IMG/VR virus record: IMGVR_UViG_3300042938_001749
Location: 1-27,897 of that record
From: a virus
Length of the DNA stretch: 27,897 nt
Strand: one strand, 5' to 3'
Shown: positions 4,242-25,486 of the stretch, one piece after another
How the letters are laid out: each line of letters begins with the position of its first letter
Position numbering within the stretch: the stretch's first letter is position 1
Translations under genes and position numbers: made by a program
The notes under the pieces: generated by a model
Told to the model about the DNA's origin: nothing
The model's input: only the letters and a program-made list of their open reading frames with translations
Database searches by the model: none

Positions 4242-4247
4242 ATTATA
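4242..4247 (-). promoter_or_regulatory. Minus-strand -10 element for the protease gene
   Basis: On the minus strand TATAAT occupies 4247-4242 and ends 9 bases before the first base of the ATG at 4233. The predicted RNA would have only about 2 leader bases. It is preceded by CGG rather than TGG, so it is not an extended -10 element; a poor TTAACT lies about 18 bp upstream. Only a weak AGG sits before the ATG. Confidence 0.5.
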
Positions 4248-4419
4248 CCGCAAAAAGACATTATTAGTTAAAGATTACAATTCCTTACGAAAAACTACAC
4301 CTCCCCATTGGGTAAACCTAAACTGTTGATATTGTTCGTTTTTATATAAAAAGAGTAAGTCTTTAATATTATTGTGAGAGTTTCTATCTCTCGTTAACCA
4401 ATTTTTCGGAGGAATGAAT

Positions 4420-8477: not shown

Positions 8478-8484
8478 AAAATCA

Positions 8485-8493
8485 TGGTATAAT
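8485..8493 (+). promoter_or_regulatory. Extended -10 promoter giving a leaderless mRNA for the 8499 gene
   Basis: TGG followed by a perfect TATAAT (8488-8493). The start codon begins 6 bases after the -10 element, where transcription is expected to begin. No -35 hexamer and no Shine-Dalgarno are visible. Confidence 0.7.
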
Positions 8494-8498
8494 ATTAC

Positions 8499-9071
8499 AT
8501 GACTAAAAGAACATGTGTATTTACTGGTTTAGAATCAAACGATAAAGACAGCGTAATACCACGTCACCTATCTAAAGACCCTCACAATTGGACTTCTACA
8601 GTCCCTACCACTACGTCATACAAAGAACAAAGAAAAGACCGTCTACCTACAGAGCTTGAAATTCAAGCTGCTGATGCGTTTTATCAAATCGAAACTTTAA
8701 AGACTAAATTAGAATTCTACGAAAATCGCCTAGCTCAAATACAGGACGAAATTAACAGTACGTTCGTACCTTTTCCTGTAGAAAAGCCTAAAAACGAAGG
8801 TAAACGTGCAGCTAAAAAGAAAGATAAAGAAATAGAAATAGCTGAAAAACAGAAAGATATCCAGAACATGGAATCTAAGTTTATAGAGGAAATGCGTAAA
8901 AAAGCTGGAGAATTAACAACTGCGGCGTATTTTGAGGAAGGTAGTTCTGGATTGGCGTTAACAAATAGTAAACCTGATTATATAGATTATAATGGTAAAA
9001 TGCCAGATATTAAAAAAATTACTGTAATTAGAAATCCAAAAAATAATATAAAAGGTCTCTGGGATGAGTAG
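8499..9071 (+). CDS. Coiled-coil hypothetical protein, 190 aa
   Basis: A 190-residue protein of unknown function. The N-terminus ('CVFTGLESNDKDSVIPRHL') faintly recalls zinc-binding HNH-like starts but lacks the second cysteine pair, so no nuclease is claimed. Residues 50-85 and 100-145 are strongly helical, Lys/Glu-rich and probably coiled coil. The last 40 residues look ordered with 'KKITVIRNPKNN'. The ATG is the only possible start for the long frame, and no Shine-Dalgarno precedes it; the upstream -10 element implies a leaderless message. It overlaps the next gene by 8 bases and heads a four-gene unit that contains an AAA+ ATPase. Confidence 0.65.
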   Translation: MTKRTCVFTGLESNDKDSVIPRHLSKDPHNWTSTVPTTTSYKEQRKDRLPTELEIQAADAFYQIETLKTKLEFYENRLAQIQDEINSTFVPFPVEKPKNEGKRAAKKKDKEIEIAEKQKDIQNMESKFIEEMRKKAGELTTAAYFEEGSSGLALTNSKPDYIDYNGKMPDIKKITVIRNPKNNIKGLWDE

Positions 9072-9348
9072 AAAATACCTACCTTCTAAAGAAGGAAGTT
9101 GGTTAGATAAAAGTAGTCATCCTCATAAGGAAGATGAATTTCCTATTTGTTATCATATAGACGCAATGAAGAGATGTATAGATTCCGATTCTAGTTGGGA
9201 TTTTGAAAGTGCGGAAGATGATGAAATTGGAAAAAATAAAGAAATTAACCAAATTCAAAATACTAGGCGCTGCACAGTATTAAAAAACAATAATGTCAAA
9301 AGTATTAAATCGCACAATAAACGTCAAAGAAATAGAGGTAAAAAATGA
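9064..9348 (+). CDS. Small basic-tailed hypothetical protein, 94 aa
   Basis: A 94-residue hydrophilic protein with scattered Cys and His ('PICYHIDAMKRCID', then 'RRCTV') and a very basic C-terminus ('KSHNKRQRNRGKK') that could bind nucleic acid. No family recognised. It overlaps the gene before it by 8 bases and the AAA+ gene after it by 4 (ATGA), so it is translationally coupled on both sides. The tight coupling suggests a partner of the ATPase, but the sequence does not show what it does. Confidence 0.6.
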   Translation: MSRKYLPSKEGSWLDKSSHPHKEDEFPICYHIDAMKRCIDSDSSWDFESAEDDEIGKNKEINQIQNTRRCTVLKNNNVKSIKSHNKRQRNRGKK

Positions 9349-10331
9349 GCGATTCTAAATTTGTCGTTAAAAAAGTTACCAGCATAGAGCATCTTGCTAA
9401 CGGACAGGAATTATACATACCTGAATCAGATATTACTTTTCAAACTAAAGATTATATCATCCAATTAGATCTACATGATGAGAAAAAAGAAAAAGAAAAA
9501 TATACTATTGAATCTGGCGTATTTATATTTGAAACTACAAACTCAGGTATGATCTTATCTCCTATCGAACTGAGAAGAAATAAAATGTTAGAAACTATAG
9601 GTGTAACCGACGATATTTTAAAAGAGGGTGATAAGTTTTTCAATAGACTTGATGTCTATGAAAGAAGATCTATAATACCTAAAAGAGCGATATTACTTAT
9701 GTCAGCCCCCGGCATTGGAAAGTCTGCTGCAATTAACCTAACATGTCATAAATATAGAGAGAAAGACAGTAAAACATGTATTATCGTATGGAATACATCT
9801 GGTATTAAATCTAAAGACGTTCTTGATTTTCTAATGTCTGATTCGGAGTTTAAAGACGTAACTAAACTAATATTAGTAATGGAAGATATCGGCGGCGGAT
9901 CTGTAGATGAATACGACGGTCCTAAAGGCGTAGACGCCAGTATGCTTAACCTACTAGATGGAGTAGGAAATCCTTTTCAAAATATTCCTACGTTTATTAT
10001 AGCTACAACAAACCATCCAGAACAAGTGGCTGAAGCATTGATTGATAGACCGGGTCGTTTTGACAAATGTCTTGAGCTTAAGTCACCTAATGAAGATGAA
10101 GCTATTAGACTTTATGAATTCTTTTTAGACGGTGTTCTTGACGAAGGCACTTTTGAAGCGGCTAAGATAGCTGCTAAAAATAAGTTTAGTATTGCTCATA
10201 TTAGTGAATCTATTACTAGAGCTGAATTGGACGATACTACAATATTAGAAGCAGTTAATTCACTAGTAGAACATAAAAAGAAATTTAAGAAGGCTTTTAG
10301 TAAAATCAAAGGGATGGGATTAAATGACTAA
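9345..10331 (+). CDS. AAA+ ATPase
   Basis: A 328-residue protein with a C-terminal AAA+ module after an N-terminal domain of about 100 residues. Walker A is 'APGIGKS' at 121-127 (Lys126), Walker B is 'LILVMEDIG' with Glu180-Asp181, and the second region of homology contains 'DRPGRFD' at 234-240 with candidate arginine fingers Arg235 and Arg238; 'FIIATTNHPE' before it is the sensor 1 segment. This pattern fits the classical AAA clade (FtsH, BCS1, proteasome-type), which act as hexamers to remodel or unfold proteins. No protease domain is attached. It sits directly upstream of a zinc-ribbon protein and the GroEL-like chaperonin, so a part in protein remodelling or head assembly is plausible but inferred. 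Confidence 0.85.
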   Translation: MSDSKFVVKKVTSIEHLANGQELYIPESDITFQTKDYIIQLDLHDEKKEKEKYTIESGVFIFETTNSGMILSPIELRRNKMLETIGVTDDILKEGDKFFNRLDVYERRSIIPKRAILLMSAPGIGKSAAINLTCHKYREKDSKTCIIVWNTSGIKSKDVLDFLMSDSEFKDVTKLILVMEDIGGGSVDEYDGPKGVDASMLNLLDGVGNPFQNIPTFIIATTNHPEQVAEALIDRPGRFDKCLELKSPNEDEAIRLYEFFLDGVLDEGTFEAAKIAAKNKFSIAHISESITRAELDDTTILEAVNSLVEHKKKFKKAFSKIKGMGLND

Positions 10332-10524
10332 GTTTAAATGCGATAAATGTGGCTGCAGTCCAGAATTTCTATGGATGTTCGGTGGATTCGGTCCTACAAA
10401 AGACGACGATAAAGAATACTGCGAAACTTGTTTCACTAGTCGATTAAAATTTTTTGGACTTCATGTACCAAAACCAGAATTAGAGCAAGAACCAGAAGAA
10501 AAAGAAAATAGTTTGAGCGCATAA
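10324..10524 (+). CDS. Small zinc-ribbon protein
   Basis: A 66-residue protein with two CxxC pairs (Cys6/Cys9 and Cys33/Cys36), the spacing of a treble-clef or zinc-ribbon knuckle, plus Cys11. The tail is Glu/Pro-rich and likely disordered. It begins 8 bases inside the AAA+ gene, so the two are co-translated and may be partners. Role unknown; adaptor or nucleic-acid binding are both possible. Confidence 0.65.
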   Translation: MTKFKCDKCGCSPEFLWMFGGFGPTKDDDKEYCETCFTSRLKFFGLHVPKPELEQEPEEKENSLSA

Positions 10525-10535
10525 TCACCTCTTTA

Positions 10536-10544
10536 TGGTATTAT
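10536..10544 (+). promoter_or_regulatory. Extended -10 promoter upstream of the chaperonin gene
   Basis: TGG followed by TATTAT (10539-10544), in a very AT-rich stretch. No clear -35 at the right distance (a TTGAGC at 10513 is 20 bp away). The leader would be about 25 nt and carries AAAGGA at 10566-10571, so unlike the leaderless genes this message has a ribosome binding site. Confidence 0.5.
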
Positions 10545-10575
10545 ATATTAATACAATATTATTGTAAAGGATAAA

Positions 10576-12342
10576 ATGGCACGTAAAGTTAAATCACAAG
10601 TTAAAATCTTCACCAGCGACCTTAACTTCTTAGAAAAAAAGATAGTTAAGACAATGGATAGGATATCTGGTATTGTAGGAGCTTCTTTAGGTCCAAACGG
10701 TCGAAATATCTTGATCGAAAGCGAACTACCTGAAATTCCTAATAAAAACACTAAAGACGGTGTTTCTATTTTTAGAGCTTTAGGTGCTAACGATCCATAT
10801 GAGCATATTATCATCGAACAAACTCGCGATGCTGCAATTAGAACTGTTAATGAAGCTGGAGACGGTACGACTACCGCTACTGTAATTTCAGCGGCTTTAA
10901 TTAAAAATCTTTTTAATTTTTGTGGTGACAACCGTAAATACTCTCCACAAAGAGTTACACGTATTATTAATAAGTTAGTGAAAGAGAAGATTATCCCTGA
11001 CCTGAATGATTCATCTATTCGGGTCAAAAATATTAAAGATAGACATCTACTTGAGAAAGTGGCTACTATTTCTGTAAACGGTGATACTGACATGGCTAAA
11101 TCAGTCATGGAAGCTTTTGAGCTTACGGGATTCTCTTCAGCTTCTCACGTTACTATTCAAGAACTATCTGGTCCGAGTGGAGCTTATGATGTTAAGCTTA
11201 TTGAAGGTTTTCCTATCAATAAAGGATATGAAGAATCTATCGGTAAGTTTCACCCTGCTTTTATTAATGATCAAGCCAATCAAAGATGTGAACTAGAAAA
11301 ACCTCTTTTTATTCTATTTGATGGGAATATTACAGACGTTCTCCAAATTGGAGATATTTTACAGTCTATCGGTGAAAGATACGTCTCAGGTGAGATGGAT
11401 TTTAAAAACGTTGTTATTTTAGCTCACTATTTTTCAGATCCAGTGTTAACTTGGCTTGCTTTTAACTTTCCAAATCCAAACACTATTAACGTAGTTCCAC
11501 TAGTAACTCCTATGGACGCTATCGCCAATGCTCAGCTTCACTTCCTTATTGACGTTTCAGCGTTTACGGGAGCTAAGATTTTCGATATGCACAATCCATT
11601 AACAGAAGCTACTCCAGATGATTTCGGAAAAGAAGTAGAAAAGATTTCTATTTATAGATATCGCACCACTATTGTTGGTAATCCTGATGAGTTAAACATA
11701 GAATCTAGAGCTGATGAAATTCGTAAGCAAATGGCTCAATCAGAATCTAAGCTAGAGAAGATGATTCTAGAAGAAAGAGTAGGTAAATTAACTAGCGGTA
11801 TTGCCCAGCTTCGTATTTACGGATCTTCTAACGGAGAGCTTAAAGAGAAAGCGGATAGAGCTGAAGACGCTGTTTGTGCTGTAAGGGCTGCGATTAATCA
11901 TGGTTGTTTGCCGGGTGGTTGCAGGGCACTTATTGATCAAGTAGTTAAACTCAATTCCGATCAAGATCCTATTATTCAAAAAGTAGTTATCCCATCTCTA
12001 ATGGCTCCATTCTTTAAATTGTTAGATAATGCTGGTTATAATGAAGAAGAAGTTCAAGAAATTCTAACGAAACTATTTAAAAATAAAGATCTAGTTTTTA
12101 ACGTAGCTACGGCTGAGTTTGGTAAGATTAAAGACATGGGCGTATACGACGCTACATTGGCTGTAACTCAAGCTCTTATTAACGCTTGCAGTATTGCTTC
12201 TGTAATGGGTACTCTAGGTGGTATTATTTGTACTCCACGAGACGAAGCTCTCGAAAGACAAGAGTTTTTAGACGCTCAGAATTTTGATAAGAGTTTAGAA
12301 AGTGCTGAATCATTTACTAATGAAGCGAATAACAGACCTTAA
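10576..12342 (+). CDS. GroEL-like group I chaperonin
   Basis: A 588-residue divergent chaperonin subunit, longer than host GroEL (about 548). The equatorial ATP site is intact: 'GASLGPNGRN' near 35, 'TKDGVS' with Asp61 (GroEL Asp52), 'AGDGTTTATV' with Asp96 (Asp87) and 'AEDAVCAVRAA' with Asp431 (Asp398). The apical part is recognisable ('PLFILFDGNITDVLQI', 'NVVILAHYF') but diverged. 'ERVGKLTSGIAQLRIYG' and 'GVYDATLAVTQALINA' are classic. The C-terminal Gly-Gly-Met tail is absent; it ends in Asn-Asn-Arg-Pro. Pseudomonas phages EL and OBP encode such chaperonins, and the EL protein works without GroES. Its place just before TerL suggests it folds virion proteins. A possible GroES-like partner lies at 22851-23147. 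Confidence 0.93.
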   Translation: MARKVKSQVKIFTSDLNFLEKKIVKTMDRISGIVGASLGPNGRNILIESELPEIPNKNTKDGVSIFRALGANDPYEHIIIEQTRDAAIRTVNEAGDGTTTATVISAALIKNLFNFCGDNRKYSPQRVTRIINKLVKEKIIPDLNDSSIRVKNIKDRHLLEKVATISVNGDTDMAKSVMEAFELTGFSSASHVTIQELSGPSGAYDVKLIEGFPINKGYEESIGKFHPAFINDQANQRCELEKPLFILFDGNITDVLQIGDILQSIGERYVSGEMDFKNVVILAHYFSDPVLTWLAFNFPNPNTINVVPLVTPMDAIANAQLHFLIDVSAFTGAKIFDMHNPLTEATPDDFGKEVEKISIYRYRTTIVGNPDELNIESRADEIRKQMAQSESKLEKMILEERVGKLTSGIAQLRIYGSSNGELKEKADRAEDAVCAVRAAINHGCLPGGCRALIDQVVKLNSDQDPIIQKVVIPSLMAPFFKLLDNAGYNEEEVQEILTKLFKNKDLVFNVATAEFGKIKDMGVYDATLAVTQALINACSIASVMGTLGGIICTPRDEALERQEFLDAQNFDKSLESAESFTNEANNRP

Positions 12343-12348
12343 GGTAAA

Positions 12349-14214
12349 ATGGAATCTAACGACGATTTGGAAGAATATAAGAGACAACTAATATTCCAGC
12401 CTCTTAACTCTAAAGAAGAGTTGAGGGACTGGATGTATCTCTATTTCGATCTATATTTTCCTATGGGAGTTGTTTTCGATACTTCTACTCACGGTCCTGT
12501 CGAAGCTATGTGGCGTATCTACGAACTATTTAAAACAAATCAGACAAAAGACGTTCCCCAAGTAGTAATGGTTGCTTCGCGAGATAGTTTTAAAACTCTA
12601 TCTGCAGCAGCTATTGAAGTGCTGTGTTTCGTACATTTCAGAATACCTATTGCACACGCTGCTGCAATTAAATTCCAAGCTGGAGCTTGCGTAAACTACG
12701 TTAACTCATTTTTTAGAAAAATACGTCCATATTTAGAGTTTCATGGTTGGACAAGAGTTTCAGACAATAAAACACTAATTGAGTGGAGAACTAAAGAAAA
12801 AGAAGATCTTTCTCTTACAGTTCTAACAGCTACACGAGCAGGGATGAACAGTCGTCACGTACCGTTTCTTATCTTGGATGAGTTGGATCTTATGGACCCG
12901 AATGCTTTTAAAGAAAGTCGAATGGTTCCTTCAGTATATAAAGAATTCTCTCCTTTAATTCTTATTCTAAGTACAAGAAAATTCGCCTCTGGACTTATGG
13001 AGTCTCAGATTCAACTCACGCCTAAAATTGGTGGAGAAGTATTTAAATGGAATATTATCGATGTTACAGAGAAAATTTCAGATGAAATAGCTAGAGTAAA
13101 CGAACCTAAAGTGACTAGATATATATCCGCTAAACTACCGCTTAAAAACCTATCTCCAGCACAGTTTAAACTATTACCAGACGAAGAGGCTAACAAATTC
13201 GAAAGAATAGAAGCATATGCAGGTATTGCTGAACATCAATTACTTCCTGTAATGAGAAATCTATTAGTAGACAGACCTAAAGACGATAAGGGTTTCTTAT
13301 ATAAACCGCTTACAGCTACTCACAACAACTTTAAAGTTACAGATATAGATATTGCCGATGCTCAACTACTTTGTAATAAACCGTCCAGCGCAGGATTGGT
13401 ATATGGTAGATTTGATACGAATTTAAATATTTTAACTCCAGAACAAGCTTTAGAGAGACTACTTGGACATAAGTCTCCAAATACTTCTATGGAGTTTTTA
13501 AAAGATAGTTTGATGAATCTAGGAGTTACTTTTATCGGTGGAGGAGATTGGGGTTTTACCGATTTCACATCATTAGTTATTCTAGCTATCTTACCTAATG
13601 GCGACGCTTGGATTGTCGATGGATTCTTAGAAAACCGTATTGAATTAGAAGATATTGTAAAAGCAGTTAAAGAAATGCAGGAGAAATGGGGAGTTTCTAG
13701 ATGGTATCTGGAACAAGCCTATCCTGCCTATTTAGTCACTTTACGTAAAGCTGGTATCAAATGCCCTGAATTCAAAAAAGTTGTAGAAGACGGTATCACG
13801 GCGCTGCAATCTAGAATTGTAGATGTTTCAAACATTAGGAAGTTTTTCGTTATTCAACAACCAGCTACGGAAAGAATTTCACAAGCTTTTAGAGAGTATA
13901 AATGGTCGATCGACGGTAAAGGTGACGTAATCGAAGGTAAGCCGTATCACGATAAAGACGGCGTATCGGATATTATGGATTCTATCAGATATCCTATGCA
14001 GAATCTTTTTAACAGAAACGGTCGAATTATGTTCAGTATAGATCATTCTGTAGATAAAGCTAAAACAGCTCCAAATCAGCCTCAAGATCTAGCTGTATTA
14101 GCAGGTAAAGCTAATCAAGAACTTATGAAAACTAAGATGAAAGAGCTGGTTCCTGACTACGAAAAAACGACACAAACTAAGGTAATTCCCCAAAAGAAGA
14201 TATTTTGGGGTTAA
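12349..14214 (+). CDS. terL: Terminase large subunit
   Basis: A 621-residue packaging motor. The ATPase has a deviant Walker A 'ASRDSFKT' at 76-83 (Lys82), in line with terminase P-loops, and Walker B 'FLILDELD' with Asp177-Glu178, followed by 'ILILSTRK', a coupling-motif-like segment. The nuclease domain begins at 'GGGDWGFTDF' with Asp400 as first metal ligand; 'DKDGVSDIMDSIRY' (Asp537, Asp541, Asp544) supplies the late acidic residues of the RNase H-like fold. It cuts concatemers and drives DNA into the prohead through the portal encoded at 15220. It starts 6 bases after the chaperonin gene with AAGG upstream. The small subunit is not adjacent; a candidate is at 24458. Confidence 0.9.
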   Translation: MESNDDLEEYKRQLIFQPLNSKEELRDWMYLYFDLYFPMGVVFDTSTHGPVEAMWRIYELFKTNQTKDVPQVVMVASRDSFKTLSAAAIEVLCFVHFRIPIAHAAAIKFQAGACVNYVNSFFRKIRPYLEFHGWTRVSDNKTLIEWRTKEKEDLSLTVLTATRAGMNSRHVPFLILDELDLMDPNAFKESRMVPSVYKEFSPLILILSTRKFASGLMESQIQLTPKIGGEVFKWNIIDVTEKISDEIARVNEPKVTRYISAKLPLKNLSPAQFKLLPDEEANKFERIEAYAGIAEHQLLPVMRNLLVDRPKDDKGFLYKPLTATHNNFKVTDIDIADAQLLCNKPSSAGLVYGRFDTNLNILTPEQALERLLGHKSPNTSMEFLKDSLMNLGVTFIGGGDWGFTDFTSLVILAILPNGDAWIVDGFLENRIELEDIVKAVKEMQEKWGVSRWYLEQAYPAYLVTLRKAGIKCPEFKKVVEDGITALQSRIVDVSNIRKFFVIQQPATERISQAFREYKWSIDGKGDVIEGKPYHDKDGVSDIMDSIRYPMQNLFNRNGRIMFSIDHSVDKAKTAPNQPQDLAVLAGKANQELMKTKMKELVPDYEKTTQTKVIPQKKIFWG

Positions 14215-14276
14215 AAACATTATTTTGTCGTAAAAAGCAATCTTTAATTAAGTGATTAATGAAAATCGGAGAAAAA

Positions 14277-15218: not shown

Positions 15219-15219
15219 T

Positions 15220-16983: not shown

Positions 16984-16993
16984 TAGGAGATAT

Positions 16994-18381: not shown

Positions 18382-18387
18382 GTTTAG

Positions 18388-18396
18388 TGGTATAAT
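18388..18396 (+). promoter_or_regulatory. Extended -10 promoter for the tRNA-like gene
   Basis: TGG plus a perfect TATAAT (18391-18396), 18 bases before the first base of the tRNA-like gene. No good -35 element is visible. Confidence 0.55.
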
Positions 18397-18414
18397 GTAC
18401 TTACTAGTTTCTAT

Positions 18415-18515
18415 GGCGTAGTAGCTCAGTGGTCTAGAGTCCAGACGTGATCAAGTCTCCGTAACACTACGGAACTCAGAGCAGAGGTGACATTGGTTCG
18501 AATCCAATCTACGCC
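18415..18515 (+). tRNA. tRNA-like gene with abnormal central region; anticodon unclear
   Basis: The 7-bp acceptor stem is perfect (GGCGTAG at 18415-18421 with CTACGCC at 18509-18515). The D arm is canonical (GCTC 18424-18427, GAGT 18437-18440, loop with GG). The T arm is canonical (ATTGG/CCAAT around TTCGAAT, 18492-18508). Between D and T arms lie 51 bases, about 13 more than in tRNA-Ser or tRNA-Leu. The only anticodon-like stem is AGAC/GTCT with an 8-base loop GTGATCAA (18443-18458), in which U33 and A37 could flank GAUC. Next comes a hairpin CCGTA-ACAC-TACGG (18459-18472). No CCA end is encoded. It could be a 4-base decoder, a processed precursor, a degenerate tRNA or a tRNA mimic. Confidence 0.65.
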
Positions 18516-18527
18516 CTATTTTTTCTC

Positions 18528-18555
18528 TTGCAATTTGTATTATTTCTGATATAAT
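18528..18555 (+). promoter_or_regulatory. Promoter giving a leaderless mRNA for the 18562 helicase
   Basis: TTGCAA at 18528-18533, a 16-bp spacer ending in TGA, and TATAAT at 18550-18555. The ATG begins exactly 7 bases after the -10 element, the expected +1. There is no Shine-Dalgarno. Confidence 0.75.
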
Positions 18556-18561
18556 CCCTTC

Positions 18562-19587
18562 ATGGTTGACTACTCGTATCAAAACACCGCCGCCGATAAA
18601 ATCCTAGAGATGGCTCTATCTGAGCGCTATATTGCTACAATCTTAGCCGCAGCCCCAAGTTCGGGTAAGTCAACCATAATTATAAACATTCTTAATAAAC
18701 TCTTCTCTATTGATCCTAATTATAGAGCTGTAATCTTTACCCACAATCTAAATAATCTTAAAGACCAAATGCTTGAAGGATTTTCTGAAGGTTATGTAAA
18801 TCCAAACTTTACATATGGATCTATCGGCGAAAACGTACAAGTTCAAGTCGGAGTTGTAGCTTCAGGCTCTAAAGTGTTTGGAAGCGTCGATGTCGTAGTT
18901 TTTGACGAAGCTCATCAATACTACTTAGAGAATATGGCTGAATCTGTACTCTCTACACTTAAACCTAAATACGTAATTGGAATGACAGGTACGCCTAGTT
19001 ATTTCAACAGCTTCAATTCATCTAACGTACATAAAAAATTCGGTGTACATTATATATCAGCAGAAGAACTGGTAGATCTTGGTGTTTTCAGCACTGTTTT
19101 GGTAGACGTAGTTAATGGTGACGACTTAGAGTCTAGACTTAACAATTCACTTAAAAAAGCTGTTTCTCACGGAATGGACCTTTCTAAAATAATTGTAGCA
19201 GCTAAAGATCAGATGGAAGCTAACATGATCGGCTATTTACTTAGCAAGCAAGGTCGTAAGGTGGCTGTTTCTACATCGTCTGTAGACCCTAAAAATGAAC
19301 GTCTTGGTGGTTACAAACAAGGTCGCTACGATACTCTAGTTATCGTTCTTAAAGGTGTGTTGGGCTTCTCAGACGTTAACACGACTGGTATGATCGACCT
19401 TAGAACTTCTTCGGATATCGACTGCAGGAGTCAGATCTTTGCTCGCGTACTAAGAAAACATCCTAAAGATATTAAGAAATTCTATATTTCAGCAGTAGTT
19501 AAGAAGAACCACAATAAAGAAGTTAGAATGCTACAATCGGTAATTGGACTTATGCAGCGTAAAAACTTTATCAGTTATATAAAATAA
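18562..19587 (+). CDS. SF2 helicase (DEAH-box)
   Basis: A 341-residue superfamily 2 helicase, compact for the group. Walker A 'APSSGKST' is at 31-38 (Lys36), DEAH at 115-118, motif III 'MTGTPS' at 141-146 and a motif VI-like 'SQIFARVLRKHP' near 290-300 with Arg295 and Arg298 as candidate arginine fingers. The first motif lies only 30 residues from the N-terminus, so there is almost no accessory domain. It should use ATP to move on or remodel nucleic acid; whether it acts in replication, recombination or RNA metabolism cannot be told. The leader is predicted absent (see the promoter at 18528-18555). A second SF2 helicase follows at 20310. Confidence 0.88.
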   Translation: MVDYSYQNTAADKILEMALSERYIATILAAAPSSGKSTIIINILNKLFSIDPNYRAVIFTHNLNNLKDQMLEGFSEGYVNPNFTYGSIGENVQVQVGVVASGSKVFGSVDVVVFDEAHQYYLENMAESVLSTLKPKYVIGMTGTPSYFNSFNSSNVHKKFGVHYISAEELVDLGVFSTVLVDVVNGDDLESRLNNSLKKAVSHGMDLSKIIVAAKDQMEANMIGYLLSKQGRKVAVSTSSVDPKNERLGGYKQGRYDTLVIVLKGVLGFSDVNTTGMIDLRTSSDIDCRSQIFARVLRKHPKDIKKFYISAVVKKNHNKEVRMLQSVIGLMQRKNFISYIK

Positions 19588-19589
19588 TC

Positions 19590-19618
19590 TTGCTTTAAGT
19601 TAAAACATCGTGTATTAT
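19590..19618 (+). promoter_or_regulatory. Sigma70-like promoter upstream of the 19636 gene
   Basis: TTGCTT at 19590-19595, a 17-bp spacer and TATTAT at 19613-19618. The leader would be about 11 nt and contains AAGAGG before the ATG. Confidence 0.5.
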
Positions 19619-19635
19619 CTTTAAAAGAGGTAATT

Positions 19636-19851
19636 ATGAAAAACCATTACGAAACATTGTGGGACTTATTTGACGATCTTGCTGAATTCTACAGTAGCAG
19701 TCAAGTAGAAATTCCTATGATCACTGGTGGGATTTCTCGTGAGCAAACGATGAAGTATACTTTTAATATCTCCCACAAGACAAAGAAACTACACGTCCAG
19801 ATCTACAGAATGTCGTCTGGACGTTATGAATATAACGGATATGTGCTTTAA
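19636..19851 (+). CDS. Hypothetical protein, 71 aa
   Basis: A 71-residue protein with no recognised domain. An N-terminal helix (residues 3-20, Leu/Phe/Asp-rich) is followed by probable beta strands ('MKYTFNISHKTKKLHVQIYRMSSGRYEYNGYVL'). An AAGAGG site precedes the ATG. Its stop overlaps the end of the convergent M15 peptidase gene by 4 bases, so the two mRNAs overlap tail to tail. Confidence 0.6.
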   Translation: MKNHYETLWDLFDDLAEFYSSSQVEIPMITGGISREQTMKYTFNISHKTKKLHVQIYRMSSGRYEYNGYVL

Positions 19852-20264
19852 GGCATGAACCAAATGGTTTTACCATTAGTCCAAGATCCGTAAGGAACAA
19901 TTTGAAAATGACACCATCCAATAGTTTTACTATCGTCTTCAAGCCAAAGACCGACTTCTAATAGGAACTTCTCGTTCTTTCTACACCAAACATCTAATTC
20001 ACCGTTTGGATCTGCAATATCAATAGCTTGTCCAAATAAGTGTTTACTTTTCATTGGAATCAGTTTCTTATCTGTAATTCCCTTTCTAGCATAAATTGCC
20101 AAATGCTCTACCATTGAGCGATATACAGAAGTTGGAGTCATTGACTTACCGTATTTCTCTCTTACTTTATTAATCCTTTCTAATACTATCGCTAAGTTAG
20201 CTGCGTGATCTTTAGGTAGATCTTCTAACTTCTTACCCATTAATATTTCTTTCATTGTCAACAT
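19848..20264 (-). CDS. M15-family peptidoglycan peptidase (endolysin-like)
   Basis: A 138-residue zinc peptidase domain. 'SVYRS' near 46-50 and 'SKHLFGQAID' at 73-82 give the M15 motif SxHxxGxAxD with zinc ligands His75 and Asp82; 'GWCHFQ' at 116-121 supplies the third ligand, His119. Family members cut peptide bonds in cell-wall stem peptides or cross-bridges. There is no signal peptide or binding domain, so it would need a holin or release during lysis, or could be packed in the virion. An AGAGG site precedes ATG on the minus strand. It is the only minus-strand gene in the right-hand half of the window. Confidence 0.85.
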   Translation of the reverse strand: MLTMKEILMGKKLEDLPKDHAANLAIVLERINKVREKYGKSMTPTSVYRSMVEHLAIYARKGITDKKLIPMKSKHLFGQAIDIADPNGELDVWCRKNEKFLLEVGLWLEDDSKTIGWCHFQIVPYGSWTNGKTIWFMP

Positions 20265-20295
20265 AGTTACCTCTTTACCATAAAGATTGTTTTTG

Positions 20296-20304
20296 TGGTA
20301 GAAT
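20296..20304 (+). promoter_or_regulatory. Extended -10 promoter giving a leaderless mRNA for the 20310 helicase
   Basis: TGG followed by TAGAAT (20299-20304), one mismatch to consensus. The ATG begins 6 bases later. A weak TTTACC lies 18 bp upstream (20275-20280). No Shine-Dalgarno is present. Confidence 0.6.
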
Positions 20305-20309
20305 AACCT

Positions 20310-21797
20310 ATGATATTTAAAATAGTTACACCAATTAAAGCATATATTATCGGAGCTACTCCAGAAGAGCTAGTTAAGATTAGACAGCAAACTCACTATG
20401 TCAGTGATTCAGTTGTTTACAATATCAATAAGATAAAAAATAACCGTTGGTGGAAGAGAAGTAATCCAGATACTTGGCAAGAGGCTTTAGATAATTTAGC
20501 TGGTCAAAAAGATAAATACCTACTTTTTAAGGATGTTGGTGGTTATTTTATCAGACCGGGGTATATAAGCTATCTAATTGGATTTACGTACACAGTAGAA
20601 AACTGTGTAAAATACCCCACATTAAAATCCCTAAAGTGGGAAAAAACACCCACGTTCGAACCATATGACTATCAAAACGATAGTAATGACCTATTACTTA
20701 AAATTAAACATGGTTGCGTCAGCCTACCTACAGGATCTGGGAAGTCTTATCTCCTAGAGCTTATAGCTAAAAATTCAGGACTTGATATCTCTGTCATCAC
20801 TCCTAGCGCTTCTATTTTTAACCAATTATTAGAGGAATTTACTTTACTTTTTGGTAAAGCTAGGGTAGGTGGTTTTGGCGACGGCAAGAAAGATATCACT
20901 AAGAAGATAAGTATTTGCATTAACAAGTCTTTAGCTAACCTTAAAGAAGGAACTAAAGAATATGACTTTTTCGCTAAAAAGCAAATGATATGTGTAGATG
21001 AATCTCATACCTTTGCTGCTGAAACATTGGAAGAAGTGTGTCACGGTGTATTTTCAGAAGTTCCATATAGACTATTCTTTTCCGCCACTCAAACTCGTGG
21101 TGACGGATCTGAGAAGCTCCTATATTCAATTATTGGACCGTGTGTTTATGAAATGAGTATAGAAGAAGCTATTAAGAAAGGATATCTATGCCCTCTTAAA
21201 TTCACTGTTTTAAAAACAACTTCCCCTTCTCCTTTAGTTATTAGAGATGCTATGGATAACAAGCGCGAGCATTTTCTACGTAACAAGAATATAGCGGAGC
21301 TGGTAGCTAAAATAGCTAATGCTAAATGGAGATCTTTACAAGAATCGACTTTAATCCTTGTAGAGGAACTTTCTCAAATAAGTATGGTAATGAAATTATT
21401 AGAAGTTCCCTATGGATACGTTCATGCTGCGTCTAAGAAAGAAGCTGCGGAAGTTGGCTTGGTAGCTGTTAAATCAGCCGAACAGATAGAGAAATTTAAT
21501 AAAGGTGAAATTAAAGTATTAATAGGAACTAAAGCTATCGCAACTGGAACTAACATGTTCCCTACACATAATACTATAAACTTCTCAGGCGGAAATTCAG
21601 AAATAGTCACTAAACAAGGTACTATGGGTAGATCGACACGCAAGCTTGAAAATAGTAAATATAAAGAATATCATAAACCCAAACCTTATAGTATGATTTA
21701 CGATTTTGACGTCAGAGGTAATAAGTTATTAGAAACTCAGCTTAGGAATAGAATAAAATTCTATGAAGAATCGGGCGAACTAGTTAAAATTGTTTAA
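20310..21797 (+). CDS. SF2 helicase, UvsW/XPB-like
   Basis: A 495-residue superfamily 2 helicase. An N-terminal domain of about 115 residues precedes 'PYDYQNDS' (a Q-motif-like element) and the motor: Walker A 'LPTGSGKS' at 139-146 (Lys145), 'DESH' at 230-233, motif III 'FSATQTRGDGS', and motif VI 'KQGTMGRSTRK' with Arg441 and Arg444. Layout and the 'SAT-x-x-R' element resemble T4 UvsW and related XPB/RecG-like enzymes, which unwind branched DNA and R-loops and help switch from origin-dependent to recombination-dependent replication. The presence of gp46/gp47-like genes nearby agrees with that. The UvsW assignment is inference from layout. Confidence 0.87.
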   Translation: MIFKIVTPIKAYIIGATPEELVKIRQQTHYVSDSVVYNINKIKNNRWWKRSNPDTWQEALDNLAGQKDKYLLFKDVGGYFIRPGYISYLIGFTYTVENCVKYPTLKSLKWEKTPTFEPYDYQNDSNDLLLKIKHGCVSLPTGSGKSYLLELIAKNSGLDISVITPSASIFNQLLEEFTLLFGKARVGGFGDGKKDITKKISICINKSLANLKEGTKEYDFFAKKQMICVDESHTFAAETLEEVCHGVFSEVPYRLFFSATQTRGDGSEKLLYSIIGPCVYEMSIEEAIKKGYLCPLKFTVLKTTSPSPLVIRDAMDNKREHFLRNKNIAELVAKIANAKWRSLQESTLILVEELSQISMVMKLLEVPYGYVHAASKKEAAEVGLVAVKSAEQIEKFNKGEIKVLIGTKAIATGTNMFPTHNTINFSGGNSEIVTKQGTMGRSTRKLENSKYKEYHKPKPYSMIYDFDVRGNKLLETQLRNRIKFYEESGELVKIV

Positions 21798-21802
21798 AAA
21801 CA

Positions 21803-21811
21803 TGGTATAAT
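21803..21811 (+). promoter_or_regulatory. Extended -10 promoter giving a leaderless mRNA for the sigma-like gene
   Basis: TGG followed by a perfect TATAAT (21806-21811), with the ATG 6 bases downstream. No -35 and no Shine-Dalgarno. The context is nearly identical to that upstream of the 8499 gene (CATGGTATAATAT). Confidence 0.7.
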
Positions 21812-21816
21812 ATAGA

Positions 21817-22854
21817 ATGGCTTTCAAAAGAATAGAAATAGATAGACATTTCCAGAATCTGGCTAGGCAGATTAAAGACGTTATTGAAGATAACGAAGGT
21901 AGTATTGATGACCAAAAAGAACACGTCGAGCGGTTGATGCAATTAGAGCTTACTTTTAGAGAAGATATCAAACGTTATTCTAAAGGTACAGAAGCTTACG
22001 TTAAATTTATTAAATATATTACTATCGAAGTAGGTAATATGTTAACTGCTAAATCCTATTTTAGAGAAATAGCAGCAGATTACACTAAAATATCTGAGAA
22101 GATGAAAAACGACGACGCTAAGGGTTTGATGATTTTCCATCCAAACTATAGTATGATACAGTTTATAGTTGAAAATTGGGGTGGTCCACTACCTAAGAAA
22201 GTTCAGTCTACATACAATAAATTCCTAGAATGTAGACGAGAACTTATAGAGAATAACCTACCACTTGCTATTAACAGAGCAATGATTTTTTACAGAAAAA
22301 CTCCTAAAAACCATCTTACCTTATTGGACTTCATCGGTATTTGTACTTGCGGATTAGCTGTTGGAATAGATAAATACGTAGGTCAATATACGCCCGTGTG
22401 GAGATCTGTCTGCATAGGTAGAATGGTCGGTTTTATGATAGAGGAATATTCTAAAACATTTATTAAGATGTATCCGAGCGATCAAAAAATTCTATACCGC
22501 ACAAAAGCTCTTAAATATAAACTCCAGATAGAAGATACTAAACTACTTACAAAAGTTGTGAATGATAGTTTCTACGAAGATCAGAAACTAGGTAAGCCAT
22601 GTCCTCACCTTCCTATTGCCGAAGAAGTAATAAGAGGTTTATTAAATTCCTCTGGATATATCTCTGCAGATAGCGTTTCTCCCGATTCAGAAGATGAGGA
22701 AGGCGTTTCGGTCTATGACTATGCTTTTAACGAAGAAGATAACGTCGAAGAAAAAGTTGAATATAGAGATTCGGTAAGAAAAATCTCTTCAATGGGAATG
22801 TATTTAACTATAATGGAAAGAAAAGTAATTAGATTAAAGGGAGTAATGATATGA
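21817..22854 (+). CDS. Divergent sigma70-family-like factor lacking most of region 4
   Basis: A 345-residue protein. Residues about 141-220 fit sigma region 2: 'ENNLPLAINRAMIFY' for the 'NLRLV-x-x-A-x-x-Y' helix, 'LLDFIGICTCGLAVGIDKY' for 'LDLIQEGNIGLMKAVDKF', and 'WRSVCIGRMVGFMIEEYSKT' for the 'WWIRQAITRAI' helix, ending before 'MYP', where region 2 normally meets 'RIPVH'. The last 20 residues ('MYLTIMERKVIRLKGVMI') look like the first helix of region 4 and then stop, so the -35-reading HTH is missing. T4 gp55 is also a reduced sigma without normal region 4. It is likely a phage late or middle sigma factor. It overlaps the GroES-like gene by 4 bases (ATGA). Function inferred from pattern only. 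Confidence 0.68.
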   Translation: MAFKRIEIDRHFQNLARQIKDVIEDNEGSIDDQKEHVERLMQLELTFREDIKRYSKGTEAYVKFIKYITIEVGNMLTAKSYFREIAADYTKISEKMKNDDAKGLMIFHPNYSMIQFIVENWGGPLPKKVQSTYNKFLECRRELIENNLPLAINRAMIFYRKTPKNHLTLLDFIGICTCGLAVGIDKYVGQYTPVWRSVCIGRMVGFMIEEYSKTFIKMYPSDQKILYRTKALKYKLQIEDTKLLTKVVNDSFYEDQKLGKPCPHLPIAEEVIRGLLNSSGYISADSVSPDSEDEEGVSVYDYAFNEEDNVEEKVEYRDSVRKISSMGMYLTIMERKVIRLKGVMI

Positions 22855-23147
22855 AGTCGGTTAATAGAAAAATAGTATGTGAACCTTATGTTTCTAAAGG
22901 GGCTGCTGCTTCTGAGATTAAGAAGGGTATGGCGTTTGTTAAACAAAAAAGTGCCGTGGTTGGATTAAAAGTCTTGATGGATGCTCAAATAGATGATAAG
23001 ATAAACATTAAGAAGGGCGAGTCTATCTATATTTTAGAGGAAGTCCTTCATAATCAAACATCGTATCAAAAACCGCTAACCTCAGACGCTCTTAAAGATC
23101 CGTTTGTTTTAGTTGATTTTGGTCACGTAGTTTTTGTTGGAGAATAG
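22851..23147 (+). CDS. Possible GroES-like co-chaperonin, 98 aa
   Basis: A 98-residue protein, the same length as GroES (97). Its layout can be matched to GroES: 'NRKIVCEPYVS' for the first strand, a 16-20 residue Gly/Ala/Lys-rich segment (15-32, containing 'KKGMAFV') in the mobile-loop position, 'SAVVGLKVLMDAQ' for 'STRGEVLAVG', 'INIKKGESIYIL' for 'VKVGDIVIF', and 'PFVLVDFGHVVFVGE' for 'EEVLIMSESDILAIVEA'. Identity is very low, so another small beta-barrel is possible. The phage encodes a GroEL, which raises the prior. It overlaps the sigma-like gene by 4 bases and the next ATG follows its stop directly. Confidence 0.45.
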   Translation: MKSVNRKIVCEPYVSKGAAASEIKKGMAFVKQKSAVVGLKVLMDAQIDDKINIKKGESIYILEEVLHNQTSYQKPLTSDALKDPFVLVDFGHVVFVGE

Positions 23148-24161
23148 ATGAAAATTCTTAGGCTTGGAGATCCCCACTGTACTGTTTCAAATATGGAAGA
23201 GTCCAACAGGCTTATGGATTTTGTCTGCAGAACTGCGTTTGAAAAACAGGTAGACCGAGTAGAAATCTTAGGAGATTTATTTGACACCCATGGTGTAATT
23301 AGAGCTGAAGTACTTGCTTTCTGGACTAAGTGGTTTGGAGTGTTATGTGGTCTTGGAAGTGACGAATCTGTTCAAACTGTAGTTCTAGTAGGGAATCATG
23401 ACCAGAAAGGAAATAAAGAATCTGAAGGTGAAATTCACGCTCTAGTTCCTTTTCGTAATTTTCATGAACACTTGAAGATTGTTGAAAATCCAAGTCTAAT
23501 TCCAAGTAGTAAACGTGGAGAATCTGGATATATAGCTTATATTCCACATATCTCAGGTGCTGAAAATTTCCTCAAAGCCGCTAATAATGTTAAAATGTGT
23601 GATATTAAAAATACAGCCACACATGTAGTTTGTCACCAAACATTCCTCGGAGCTACGTATGAGAACGGTATTTTTGCCGAAGACGGCATTGACGTTAATC
23701 TAGTTCCTTTTGATCATATTATCTCAGGTCATATTCACAAGAGCCAGACGATCGGCAAGTGTTTCTACCCCGGTACAGCTCGTTACATGAAATCTACCGA
23801 CGCCAATCAAAAGAAGGGTTTCTACATCTTCGAAAATGAAAAACCAATTGAATTTGTTTCTACTGAAGACGTAGTGATCCCTATGTATACTCTTACGCTG
23901 AACGAGCCTGATGAAGTTCCAGTACTGGACCCTAGAGCTAAAACCGTACTTGAGCTACACGGATCTTCTCAATGGATATCTAAGATTAAGAAACAGTATA
24001 AAACTAAAGCTTCTATCCGTAGTTTTCCAACCGATAGAAAAGCCTCTAAAGTAGATTCGTCTAAACTTGAATCAATCGAAGATTACGCAAATACTTTCAC
24101 CTTTAACGTTTCTGTTTCTAAATCCGACGTAGTAGATTACATGAGAGGTCTAAATGGATAA
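23148..24161 (+). CDS. Mre11/SbcD-like recombination nuclease (T4 gp47-like)
   Basis: A 337-residue metallophosphoesterase with all the family motifs in order: 'GDPHC' (Asp8, His10), 'LGDLFD' (Asp43), 'VGNHD' (Asn83, His84), 'CHQTF' (His163) and 'SGHIHKSQ' (His195, His197), which bind two Mn ions. With its Rad50/SbcC partner it processes DNA ends for recombination-dependent replication. The C-terminal 100 residues are the usual cap and partner-binding region. The partner gene begins at 26764, 2.6 kb downstream, separated by five genes. GGAG precedes the ATG, which directly follows the previous stop. Confidence 0.93.
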   Translation: MKILRLGDPHCTVSNMEESNRLMDFVCRTAFEKQVDRVEILGDLFDTHGVIRAEVLAFWTKWFGVLCGLGSDESVQTVVLVGNHDQKGNKESEGEIHALVPFRNFHEHLKIVENPSLIPSSKRGESGYIAYIPHISGAENFLKAANNVKMCDIKNTATHVVCHQTFLGATYENGIFAEDGIDVNLVPFDHIISGHIHKSQTIGKCFYPGTARYMKSTDANQKKGFYIFENEKPIEFVSTEDVVIPMYTLTLNEPDEVPVLDPRAKTVLELHGSSQWISKIKKQYKTKASIRSFPTDRKASKVDSSKLESIEDYANTFTFNVSVSKSDVVDYMRGLNG

Positions 24162-24486
24162 TAGCGAAACACTACTAGACGATCATAGGAAAATGTTAAC
24201 AGTTAGTAAACACCTATCGGATTTCCAATTACAAAACCTTAAAAAATGGGCTTTTATCGCTTTCGACAATGTAGATAATAGCTTGGTTGATTATAGTTTT
24301 ATAGACAGTGAAGATCAATTCTACGCTGGTAGAGTAATCTTCAAGATTAAGCTTGAAGAAGATATAAGTACAGAGGAAAAGTTTAAAAGAAGTACTTTTT
24401 TAGCCGACTGGACTAGGGTGCTTTTTTGGACAGACACTAAAATAGAGGTATTTGTCAATGACAAAAGAATTATCAACGATATCTAG
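24154..24486 (+). CDS. Hypothetical protein, 110 aa
   Basis: A 110-residue acidic protein with no recognised domain. A helical N-terminus (Leu/Lys-rich, residues 12-32) is followed by alternating strands ('FIAFDNVDNSLVDY', 'RVIFKIKLEED') and a hydrophobic 'FLADWTRVLFWTDTKIEVFV' stretch that is too broken by charge to be a clear membrane segment. It starts 8 bases inside the nuclease gene and ends 29 bases inside the next gene, so it is part of a tightly packed unit. Confidence 0.6.
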   Translation: MDNSETLLDDHRKMLTVSKHLSDFQLQNLKKWAFIAFDNVDNSLVDYSFIDSEDQFYAGRVIFKIKLEEDISTEEKFKRSTFLADWTRVLFWTDTKIEVFVNDKRIINDI

Positions 24487-25096
24487 AGATGACCTAAGCG
24501 TCGAAGAGACGGCTTCTCTGGCTAACTATATAGAAAATGGATGTCCCGGTCTCACCAAGATCGAGGACGCTCAGGTATTTAAATGGTTTGAACTGTACAT
24601 GGCAGGTAAGACATATAGTGAAATAGCTGTAATCACTAAGTCTAAGAAAGATTTAATAGTGTATATTTCTTACAAATCTAAATGGTTAGAGAAGAGAACT
24701 GAGTATTTCTCTTCCATAGCCCAAAGCATGACTACTAAGATAACGAACATTAGGACCGAAAGTATTAACACAGTAGCTACTATTGTTTCGTCAATGAACA
24801 AATATTTTGGTAAAAAATTCGACAGCTACCTATCGACCAATGACGATACTATTATCGAGAATATAGATTCTAAATTGTTGGAAAAATACTACAAGTCATT
24901 GGAAATATTAGAAAAAGTTATCAATCCAACTGCTAAAGATCCAGCTAAACCCTCTCCAGTTAATATTAACATTAGCTCAGGAGCTTCTTTTCAACAATCA
25001 TCTGACTCATCCCTTGATATATCCATGGATGAAAAACCTTCCGACTTGATGAAAAGACTAGTTCAAGATAAGAAAGATAAAGAGTTGAATAAATAA
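24458..25096 (+). CDS. HTH protein, possible terminase small subunit
   Basis: I set the start at ATG 24458 because AGAGG at 24444-24448 is 9 bases upstream; an in-frame TTG at 24452 is only 3 bases away. The 212-residue product has an N-terminal HTH-like segment (about residues 40-72: 'VFKWFELYMAGKTYSEIAVITKSKKDLIVYISYKSKWLEKR') resembling the DNA-binding domain of phage small terminases, a central helical region (80-150) that could form the oligomer, and a flexible C-terminus starting with 'AKPSPVNINISSG'. That order (HTH, helical oligomerisation, tail) is the TerS layout. It is far from TerL (12349) and no TerS motif is definitive, so another DNA-binding role is possible. Confidence 0.45.
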   Translation: MTKELSTISRDDLSVEETASLANYIENGCPGLTKIEDAQVFKWFELYMAGKTYSEIAVITKSKKDLIVYISYKSKWLEKRTEYFSSIAQSMTTKITNIRTESINTVATIVSSMNKYFGKKFDSYLSTNDDTIIENIDSKLLEKYYKSLEILEKVINPTAKDPAKPSPVNINISSGASFQQSSDSSLDISMDEKPSDLMKRLVQDKKDKELNK

Positions 25097-25113
25097 CTAA
25101 CTAATGATATAAT
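25085..25113 (+). promoter_or_regulatory. Promoter giving a leaderless mRNA for the 25120 gene
   Basis: TTGAAT at 25085-25090, a 17-bp spacer ending in TGA, and TATAAT at 25108-25113. The ATG at 25120 starts 7 bases after the -10. No Shine-Dalgarno. The -35 lies inside the end of the preceding gene. Confidence 0.7.
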
Positions 25114-25119
25114 ATATGT

Positions 25120-25470
25120 ATGAAAGTAGTGTTGTGTATTTTCTTATTAATATTATCTAGTACAGCCTTAGCCGATGCTGTTTCTGATGCTGCAATTAGA
25201 CACGGTCAAAAAGCTCTATTTTCATACCCTGTAGCTAATAGATTCCGTAAAGATACTGAAAAGTATCTTTTTTCATTTCTACCTATAGAGAAGAATAAAG
25301 CTATTGTGTTTGGCGGAATAGGTATGGCGTTAGTTACTGGAAATGTATCAACTAGAAACTTCAAAAATCTAAGGGTTAATATGTTAGGGTGGAACGTAGC
25401 TCCTGAAATAAATTTCAACACAAGAAATGGACAAATGTTTGCTTTAGTAGGAATAAGTAAAGATTTTTAG
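25120..25470 (+). CDS. Small exported protein with Sec signal peptide
   Basis: A 116-residue protein with a clear N-terminal signal: a short basic start (MKVV), a hydrophobic core 'LCIFLLILSST' and an Ala-Leu-Ala cleavage site after residue 18. There is no lipobox. The mature part (about 98 residues) is mildly basic and contains a Gly/Ala/Val-rich stretch ('AIVFGGIGMALVTGN', residues 62-76) that could sit in a membrane. No family recognised. The next gene also encodes a signal-peptide protein, so both may act together at the host envelope; that is inference. The message is predicted leaderless. Confidence 0.65.
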   Translation: MKVVLCIFLLILSSTALADAVSDAAIRHGQKALFSYPVANRFRKDTEKYLFSFLPIEKNKAIVFGGIGMALVTGNVSTRNFKNLRVNMLGWNVAPEINFNTRNGQMFALVGISKDF

Positions 25471-25477
25471 TTTTTTG

Positions 25478-25486
25478 TGGTATAAT
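25478..25486 (+). promoter_or_regulatory. Extended -10 promoter upstream of the ClpP-like gene
   Basis: TGG followed by TATAAT (25481-25486), with no clear -35. The start is predicted near 25493, in a small inverted repeat TAGGT-N6-ACCTA (25491-25506). AAGGA precedes the ATG at 25527, so this message carries a ribosome binding site, unlike the neighbouring 25120 gene. Confidence 0.6.

Follow-up and report, generated by a model that had tools for sequence, protein, structure and literature searches.

In the 27,897-base IMG/VR record IMGVR_UViG_3300042938_001749, a fragment of a phage genome that we analysed in full and call the window (G000 in our comparisons), five genes begin only 5 or 6 bases downstream of an extended -10 promoter element without any Shine-Dalgarno (SD) site, and this spacing is conserved at orthologous genes of diverged relatives. 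Judged from these sequences, genes with this arrangement are very likely transcribed into leaderless mRNAs. This had been predicted in a preliminary description of the window and is now supported by a peak in the spacing, the absence of SD sites, the use of ATG as start codon and the preservation of the spacing at diverged orthologs. With a rough probability of 0.82, we favor the explanation that the window derives from a large tailed phage whose pre-late promoters abut the ATG of their genes, give rise to leaderless mRNAs and are followed by a sigma factor switch to a second motif, AATCTTWA. Below, class A denotes the extended -10 element of the TGnTATAAT or TGnTAWWAT type and class B the motif AATCTTWA, while the gap is the number of bases between the end of an element and the ATG.

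The preliminary description had placed an extended -10 element just upstream of the ATG codons at 8499, 18562, 20310, 21817 and 25120, and we recovered it at all five with gaps of 5, 6, 5, 5 and 6, respectively (Table 1). It had also noted missing SD sites, and none was seen upstream of any of these starts; AGGAG-, GGAG- or GAGGT-type SD sites precede many other genes of the window. The -35 elements described as weak or missing at three of the genes are indeed weaker at 20310 and 21817 and were not found at 8499, with fair matches at 18562 and 25120, but such calls have little weight within the window because a scan for -35/-10 pairs found 29 of them compared to 26.0 in shuffled sequences. Likewise, TGNTATAAT with at most one mismatch matched the window 47 times compared to 50.5 times in shuffles, and we therefore dropped the density of the element as an argument. 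What is unusual is the distance from element to ATG and not the frequency of the element: The pattern TGNTATAATN{5,8}ATG matched the window four times in forward orientation, never in reverse and never as a backward control. The lack of any excess of the element as such would suit a chance origin from TATAAT-like words lying near ATG codons in an AT-rich genome, but the fixed spacing, its dependence on the TG, the absence of SD sites and the conservation at orthologs documented below leave this explanation a practically negligible probability.

Since the window is only a 27.9-kb fragment, we tested the spacing in related phages. The window codes for terminase, portal and major head proteins, a GroEL-like chaperonin and two helicase-like proteins, and a nucleotide search found no DNA-level match to it among named phages. 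The closest named phage by protein is Myxococcus phage Mx1 with identities of 30% for the terminase, 45% for the portal and 42% for the GroEL-like protein. Uncultured relatives were gathered through searches with terminase, portal and the protein encoded at 21817; GroEL was unhelpful as a marker (249 phage records matched). Our main comparison set comprises 14 sequences including the window, with gene starts taken from a simple in-house gene caller, and all counts refer to this set unless another sample is named. Some relatives lie in bacterial genome bins, i.e., three contigs of one Deltaproteobacteria bin and one contig assigned to Saprospiraceae (L138-L140 and L137), which gives a hint of a deltaproteobacterial-type host, bearing in mind that such bins can contain stray phage contigs.

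An early test with six sequences (the window and five relatives) used exact TGnTATAAT and ATG codons opening an open reading frame (ORF) of at least 60 amino acids; it found 13 cases at gaps 5-6, a single one across gaps 0-4 and 7-13, and then a spread from gap 14 upward. The preliminary description had proposed a scan of the motif against all gene starts, which we ran on the 14 sequences: TGnTAWWAT lies at gaps 5-6 of 32 ATG starts from 14 distinct gene families, compared to 1.1 expected per gap pair (families were counted once over both gaps), while TATAAT without the TG shows no peak at these gaps (2 compared to 2.6 expected). SD sites precede none of the 32 starts at gaps 5-6 but 47 of the 63 starts where the same element lies at gaps 14-40; among all first ATGs, 703 of 1218 have one. 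The scarcity of starts between gaps 7 and 13 would fit promoters that give either no leader at all or a leader with enough room for an SD site.

From work in E. coli, the start codon of leaderless mRNAs is nearly always ATG. At gaps 5-6 of TGnTAWWAT we found 32 of 1748 ATG starts, none of 316 GTG starts and none of 466 TTG starts; exceptions occur with TATATA, namely one GTG case in G004 and the helicase gene of G040, which begins either with TTG at gap 4 or with ATG at gap 7. Of 23 matches to TGTGnTATA in 22 further records, 11 lie at gaps 5-6, though this set is not independent because the regions upstream of the sigma factor genes of those records had been read earlier and the records had been scanned with a similar class A pattern. 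Taken together, the claim that the recurring spacing is unlikely to be accidental holds up, given that the peak is TG-dependent, free of SD sites and kept at orthologs.

This conservation was examined gene by gene. TGnTA lies at gaps 4-7 in 12 of 14 sequences (window included) for the helicase family of 20310 and also in 12 of 14 for the sigma factor family of 21817, as well as in all 5 members of family 64 (8499) and all 5 of family 67, which is absent from the window. The misses were kept in the denominators and comprise, for the helicase, a gene cut by the contig end (G022) and one without the element (G006) and, for the sigma factor, a gene without a usual start codon (G005) and one with an SD leader (G040); the helicase of G040 was counted through its TTG at gap 4 or ATG at gap 7. 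In the helicase family of 18562, 5 of 7 members have TGnTA at gap 6, and TATACT or TATAGT takes its place at the same gap in the remaining two. Across these orthologs the -10 hexamer varies (TATAAT, TATTAT, TAATAT, TATATA, TATATG) and the flanks differ, while the spacing is kept, and the sigma factors of relatives with kept spacing are only 37-55% identical to that of the window.

We extended this comparison to a wider sigma factor family, using 38 of 39 loci with 35 distinct upstream sequences (L056 was left out for its missing start). By our test, 18 of the 35 are leaderless, one of them as a weak call (L070, TGATAAGTT), compared to 1.0 on average and never more than 5 among 2000 shuffles. 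The starts of these genes are well fixed, because 15 of the 18 leaderless loci have no other ATG, GTG or TTG upstream in frame or within the next 10 codons and because the conserved sigma block starts around nine residues into the protein. Two unusual starts were seen along the way. The sigma factor gene of L056 (G005 near 50,276) has no ATG, GTG or TTG ahead of the conserved block, and an ATA codon following an AGGAG site is possibly a non-standard start. At G003:C1:28788 (in L035), an ATG lies 4 bases past a class A element and the likely start is an SD-led ATG 11 bases farther on, so that a 5'-terminal AUG would stand ahead of an SD-led gene.

Alternatively, the genes could lie on long read-through mRNAs and have their translation coupled to that of the gene upstream, with the -10 elements being incidental or minor internal promoters. 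Distances from the upstream stop to the start of only 19-23 bases (8477 to 8499, 21797 to 21817 and 25096 to 25120) make read-through possible at three of the genes, but the gene preceding 20310 is divergent, and the gap is fixed at 5-6 in a TG-dependent manner, whereas coupling without SD sites needs no extended -10 element at a fixed distance. Furthermore, an intrinsic terminator ends 7-9 bases before the class A element at the ortholog of 8499 in two relatives; a read-through leader is unlikely there, and the mRNA most likely starts at the element. We therefore consider coupling quite improbable as the general explanation and leaderless initiation the better account of these starts.

Beyond leaderless mRNAs, the preliminary description had proposed a deliberate promoter class in which transcription and leaderless translation are linked, and this idea is not supported. 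Across the 14 sequences the same element serves the SD-led genes mentioned above (47 of 63), and in the window class A also drives leadered genes (GroEL-like and Clp-protease-like) and a tRNA-like gene. Copies of the element at 10536, 18388 and 25478 had all been listed with normal leaders; the element is present at all three, but only two of them precede SD-led genes and the one at 18388 precedes the tRNA-like gene. A second, unrelated promoter-like motif (see below) also has leaderless instances, which speaks against a dedicated class as well. Leaderlessness thus arises from the placement of the promoter and not from a special promoter type.

The elements themselves look like ordinary promoters. 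By eye, all seven phages with a gene of the 18562 family have a -35 of TTGNNN type, i.e., TTGACA with a 17-base spacer in G006 and G019, TTGCAA or TTGCTA in the window, G001 and G020, and a visible TTG in G004 and G005, where the scripted search scored other words at 3 and 4 of 6. These -35 elements suggest a host sigma-70-type holoenzyme. The defining feature of a sigma-70 extended -10, a TGn directly before a TATAAT-like hexamer, is likewise present, since the spacing peak depends on the TG. An AT-rich signal for translation initiation, such as an S1-type site or an unstructured start region, would also lie at a short distance from the start codon. However, the same element is found 14-40 bases ahead of SD-led genes and ahead of the tRNA-like gene, and promoters are also what one would expect from the dependence on the TG and from the -35 elements in the 18562 family, so that we regard a translation signal as very improbable and continue to read class A as a promoter.

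De novo word counts in intergenic DNA of close relatives yielded two leading motifs: Overlapping words assemble to TTGTGGTATAAT, which is class A, and the other is AATCTTTA, which we call class B. The distance of class B to the ATG is bimodal, with 8 starts at gap 4, three strays at gaps 7-10 and then gaps of 12 or more. Counted by distinct families, gap 4 has 5 compared to 0.31 expected, and SD sites precede 0 of the 8 starts at gap 4 compared to 60 of 81 at gaps 14-40. The 22 further records, which are a clean hold-out for AATCTTWA only and not for class A, have an ATG within 12 bases after the motif 93 times compared to 31 times for the reversed control, and 29 of the 93 lie at gap 4; the count of 11 of 93 at gap 0 is too high, since the final A of the motif can also be the first base of the ATG. 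At gap 4, 16 of 28 sites open an ORF of at least 60 amino acids, including those of terminase and a prohead-protease homolog, compared to 6 of 31 at gaps 2, 3, 5, 6 and 7 together (28 of the 29 gap-4 sites were read, L153 being unreadable, and the 31 controls are all sites at those gaps). The gap-4 spacing of class B is preferred but not absolute. Of the 11 sequences with the gene in the 14259 frame, the window among them, 10 have class B ahead of it. A literature search restricted to AATCTTTA turned up no description of AATCTTWA as a phage promoter.

The two motifs partly sort genes by function. By the names of Mx1 homologs, class A lies ahead of sigma factor, GroEL, helicase and similar genes, and class B lies ahead of prohead protease, baseplate and similar genes. 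Virion and non-virion genes number 2 and 32 for class A and 13 and 2 for class B (Fisher p 3.8e-8, with related phages counted repeatedly); genes without any name were excluded from this table, as were those named by number only (6 for class A, 19 for class B). A reversed class A core lies at most 30 bases upstream at 16 of 273 AATCTTTA sites compared to 1.0 expected, and such a pair separates the divergent genes of the endolysin-like protein (20264(-); endolysin PHROG with E 6e-7, Pfam VanY/M15 below the cut-off) and the helicase (20310(+)) in the window. We considered and rejected the notion that AATCTTTA is merely the reverse of class A context and kept it as a separate class, as it stands alone ahead of many structural genes.

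A candidate for the switch between the classes is encoded at 21817, itself one of the five genes. Its Mx1 homolog (29% identity) is annotated as putative sigma factor and scores 19.5 bits with Pfam region 2, under the cut-off of 24; the protein of the window alone gave no sigma match in Pfam or PHROGs. A profile of 36 relatives matched 56 PDB sequences at E <=1, 55 of which are sigma factors (best E 5e-4), and 16 of the 36 matched a PHROG sigma family at E <=0.1. The alignments cover region 2 and some reach region 4.1, where the phage proteins stop: Aligned to a 390-residue SigA, the profile reaches about residue 340, and the complete region 4.2 of primary sigma factors is missing, so that the phage sigma factor should not read a -35 element. 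An AlphaFold2 model built from the 36 sequences has a mean predicted local distance difference test (pLDDT) score of 78.7; another model, made from 5 sequences, was set aside for its poor quality (mean pLDDT 44). The fold search with the better model returned 249 matches, 8 of them at E <=0.001 and with modest template modeling (TM) scores of 0.19-0.43, and among the best 50 of the 249 matches, 49 are titled as sigma factors or RNA polymerase complexes and the other (9a7s) has an unclear title. Judged by these profiles and the structure model, the product of 21817 is a predicted sigma-70-family factor whose end falls within region 4, and it is plausible that this factor is the reader of AATCTTWA.

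From these patterns we infer the mRNA 5' ends, the ribosomal route, the form of polymerase acting at each promoter class and the timing as follows. Early in infection, host RNA polymerase in the form of a sigma-70-type holoenzyme would read the class A promoters. These pre-late promoters, built as TTGTGGTATAAT-like extended -10 or as -35/-10 elements, would start transcription on the A of the ATG or 1-2 bases from it, giving leaderless mRNAs from two helicase genes, the sigma factor gene and a few others; these mRNAs would have to be read via a start-codon-dependent route, either with 70S ribosomes or favored by initiation factor 2 (IF2). The newly made sigma factor would then steer the polymerase to AATCTTWA ahead of virion genes and the endolysin-like gene, and some class B genes would be leaderless too, with the ATG beginning at the fifth base past the motif.

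Roles could also be distributed differently, with the phage sigma factor reading class A, including the promoter of its own gene, and another factor, e.g., a phage activator working with host sigma, acting at AATCTTWA. The sigma gene does have a class A promoter, class A drifts to TGTGATATATA without the T at -7 in more distant relatives, and a sigma factor without region 4.2 would favor extended -10 elements. Yet TGTGGTATAAT corresponds to a complete sigma-70 extended -10, -35 elements are present in one leaderless family with two of them perfect, and class A rather than class B lies ahead of GroEL and helicase genes that are probably needed before the switch, with class B at virion genes. 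We consider this distribution unlikely, though well worth keeping in mind, and continue to assign class A to the host holoenzyme. The more specific proposal of a two-step promoter programme, in which both classes have a conserved subset of genes starting at the ATG, the switch gene among them, and AATCTTWA is read by the sigma factor ending in region 4, strikes us as evenly poised between right and wrong.

Several observations weigh against our favored explanation as a whole. In the wider sigma factor family, 9 of the 35 distinct upstream sequences have TGnTATA farther upstream instead (6 of them SD-led) and 8 have none near. Mx1 lacks TGnTATAAT and has only one AATCTTTA; its helicase gene is SD-led, and its sigma factor gene overlaps the end of the helicase gene with AGGA before it. 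The genomes and gene families compared are phylogenetically dependent, and their starts rest on the simple gene caller. For class B, the prohead protease is also found at gap 3, the terminase at gap 6 and an endonuclease-like gene at gaps 5 and 7, and the virion labels used for sorting were assigned by hand from Mx1 names only, which classed 34 of the 128 genes with class A and 15 of the 108 with class B. Finally, the sigma factor matches are individually weak, as seen from the best E value in the PDB and the Mx1 score below the Pfam cut-off, and none of the 36 relatives matched the Pfam sigma models.

Table 1. Promoter-like elements of classes A and B in the window and the predicted leaderless genes that follow them.
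Feature	Position	Strand	Remarks
Class A, TGGTATAAT	8485-8493	+	5 bases ahead of ATG 8499; no -35 found by search
Predicted leaderless gene, 190 amino acids, family 64	8499-9071	+	Same arrangement in 5 of 5 family members
-35 TTGCAA, 16-base spacer and class A, TGATATAAT	18528-18555 (element 18547-18555)	+	6 bases ahead of ATG 18562
Predicted leaderless gene, ResIII/DNA-helicase-like protein, 341 amino acids	18562-19587	+	Product from PHROG/Pfam searches
Class A, TGGTAGAAT inside TTTTTGTGGTAGAAT	20296-20304	+	5 bases ahead of ATG 20310
Predicted leaderless gene, second helicase, 495 amino acids	20310-21797	+	PHROG/Pfam searches, ortholog spacing
Class A, TGGTATAAT	21803-21811	+	5 bases ahead of ATG 21817
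Predicted leaderless gene, putative phage sigma-70-family factor, 345 amino acids	21817-22854	+	Ends within region 4.1
Class A, TGATATAAT	25105-25113	+	6 bases ahead of ATG 25120; -35 TTGAAT, 17-base spacer
Predicted leaderless gene, 116-amino-acid protein	25120-25470	+	No family match in PHROG/Pfam
Class A, TGGTATTAT	10536-10544	+	Ahead of SD-led GroEL-like gene 10576; normal leader
Class A, TGGTATAAT	18388-18396	+	Ahead of tRNA-like gene 18415-18516
Class A, TGGTATAAT	25478-25486	+	Ahead of SD-led Clp-protease-like gene 25527
CGGTATAAT	4242-4250	-	8 bases ahead of ATG 4233, prohead-protease homolog; absent from the earlier list
Class B, AATCTTTA	14239-14246	+	Ahead of gene in 14259 frame; start probably SD-led ATG 14277
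Class B, AATCTTTA	20281-20288	-	Ahead of SD-led endolysin-like gene 20264(-); back to back with class A of 20310(+)
Class B, AATCTTTA	4269-4276	-	Upstream of prohead-protease homolog 4233(-)

Some further features of the window and of Mx1 were recorded alongside. The prohead-protease homolog at 4233(-) is a possible, weak sixth case with a near-leaderless start. The product of 8499 gave no PHROG match and no Pfam match over the cut-off, and a homing-endonuclease-like gene (7044-8477) lies between the major head protein gene and 8499, adjoining the candidate leaderless promoter. The start codon at 25120 is supported by a signal-peptide-like N-terminus, and this gene (25120-25470) and its neighbor at 25527-26504, which has a Clp-protease domain, both have signal-peptide-like starts by eye. 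The tRNA-like gene at 18415-18516 scores 41.6 bits with Rfam and has a 47-base center in place of the 18 positions expected from the model; it is not called by ARAGORN. Mx1 (L043-L046) has repeated intergenic words of its own, AGATCAAC in 12 segments (0.5 expected) and TAGATCAA in 10 (0.4 expected).

Parts of this picture are familiar from other phages, as far as the available passages of the respective papers go. Thermus phage phiYS40 also produces leaderless mRNAs, comprising most of its middle and late transcripts, and according to a review it favors them by raising host IF2 and lowering IF3 (PMC3594737), but its host belongs to a phylum rich in leaderless genes (PMC3160421), and in the family studied here the predicted leaderless starts fall on selected orthologs, with SD sites at more than half of all starts. 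Extended -10 promoters that need no -35 drive middle and late genes of Thermus phage P23-45 (PMC7403470), where gp39 displaces region 4 of host sigma, whereas here a predicted phage sigma factor itself ends within region 4. T4 late transcription relies on gp55, a sigma factor without domain 4 that has gp33 as its partner, and on an 8-bp promoter without -35 (PMC2988020). This resembles the divergent sigma-70-family factor without a complete region 4 and the candidate 8-bp motif described here, but our motif is AATCTTWA and the 345-amino-acid protein matches up to region 4.1; those passages of the T4 paper are silent on leaderless late genes. In bacteria, leaderless genes have TANNNT around 12 bases before the start codon, bearing a TG in low-GC Lactococcus, and 8 of 33 delta-Proteobacteria genomes are listed in a table of leaderless genes with 15.8% of genes on average (PMC3160421); these are cellular genomes, whereas we traced the arrangement gene by gene across diverged phages. 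Transcripts of phages are often leaderless according to the AR9 paper (PMC5312081), and the word leaderless does not appear in the paper on phage 7-11 (PMC8948821).

Given the precedents of phiYS40, P23-45, AR9 and T4, the principle is already known. As far as our literature searches show, what is new is that the arrangement is conserved at particular genes throughout a phage family, that the AATCTTWA class has leaderless starts of its own, and that both may be linked to a sigma factor ending within region 4. Leaderless mRNAs are usually regarded as relics or as typical of some bacterial phyla. A predicted transcription start that is kept at the ATG of a small recurring set of genes, including the phage sigma factor gene, turns the question of why they are leaderless into a testable one, be it for reasons of timing, resistance to the loss of initiation factors or freedom from control through the leader. 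The gap peaks also fix the expected start for a new candidate late-promoter motif, which would make start sites and temporal classes of uncultured phages predictable purely from their sequences. If true, the two-step programme would make selective leaderless translation part of the infection timetable of this family.

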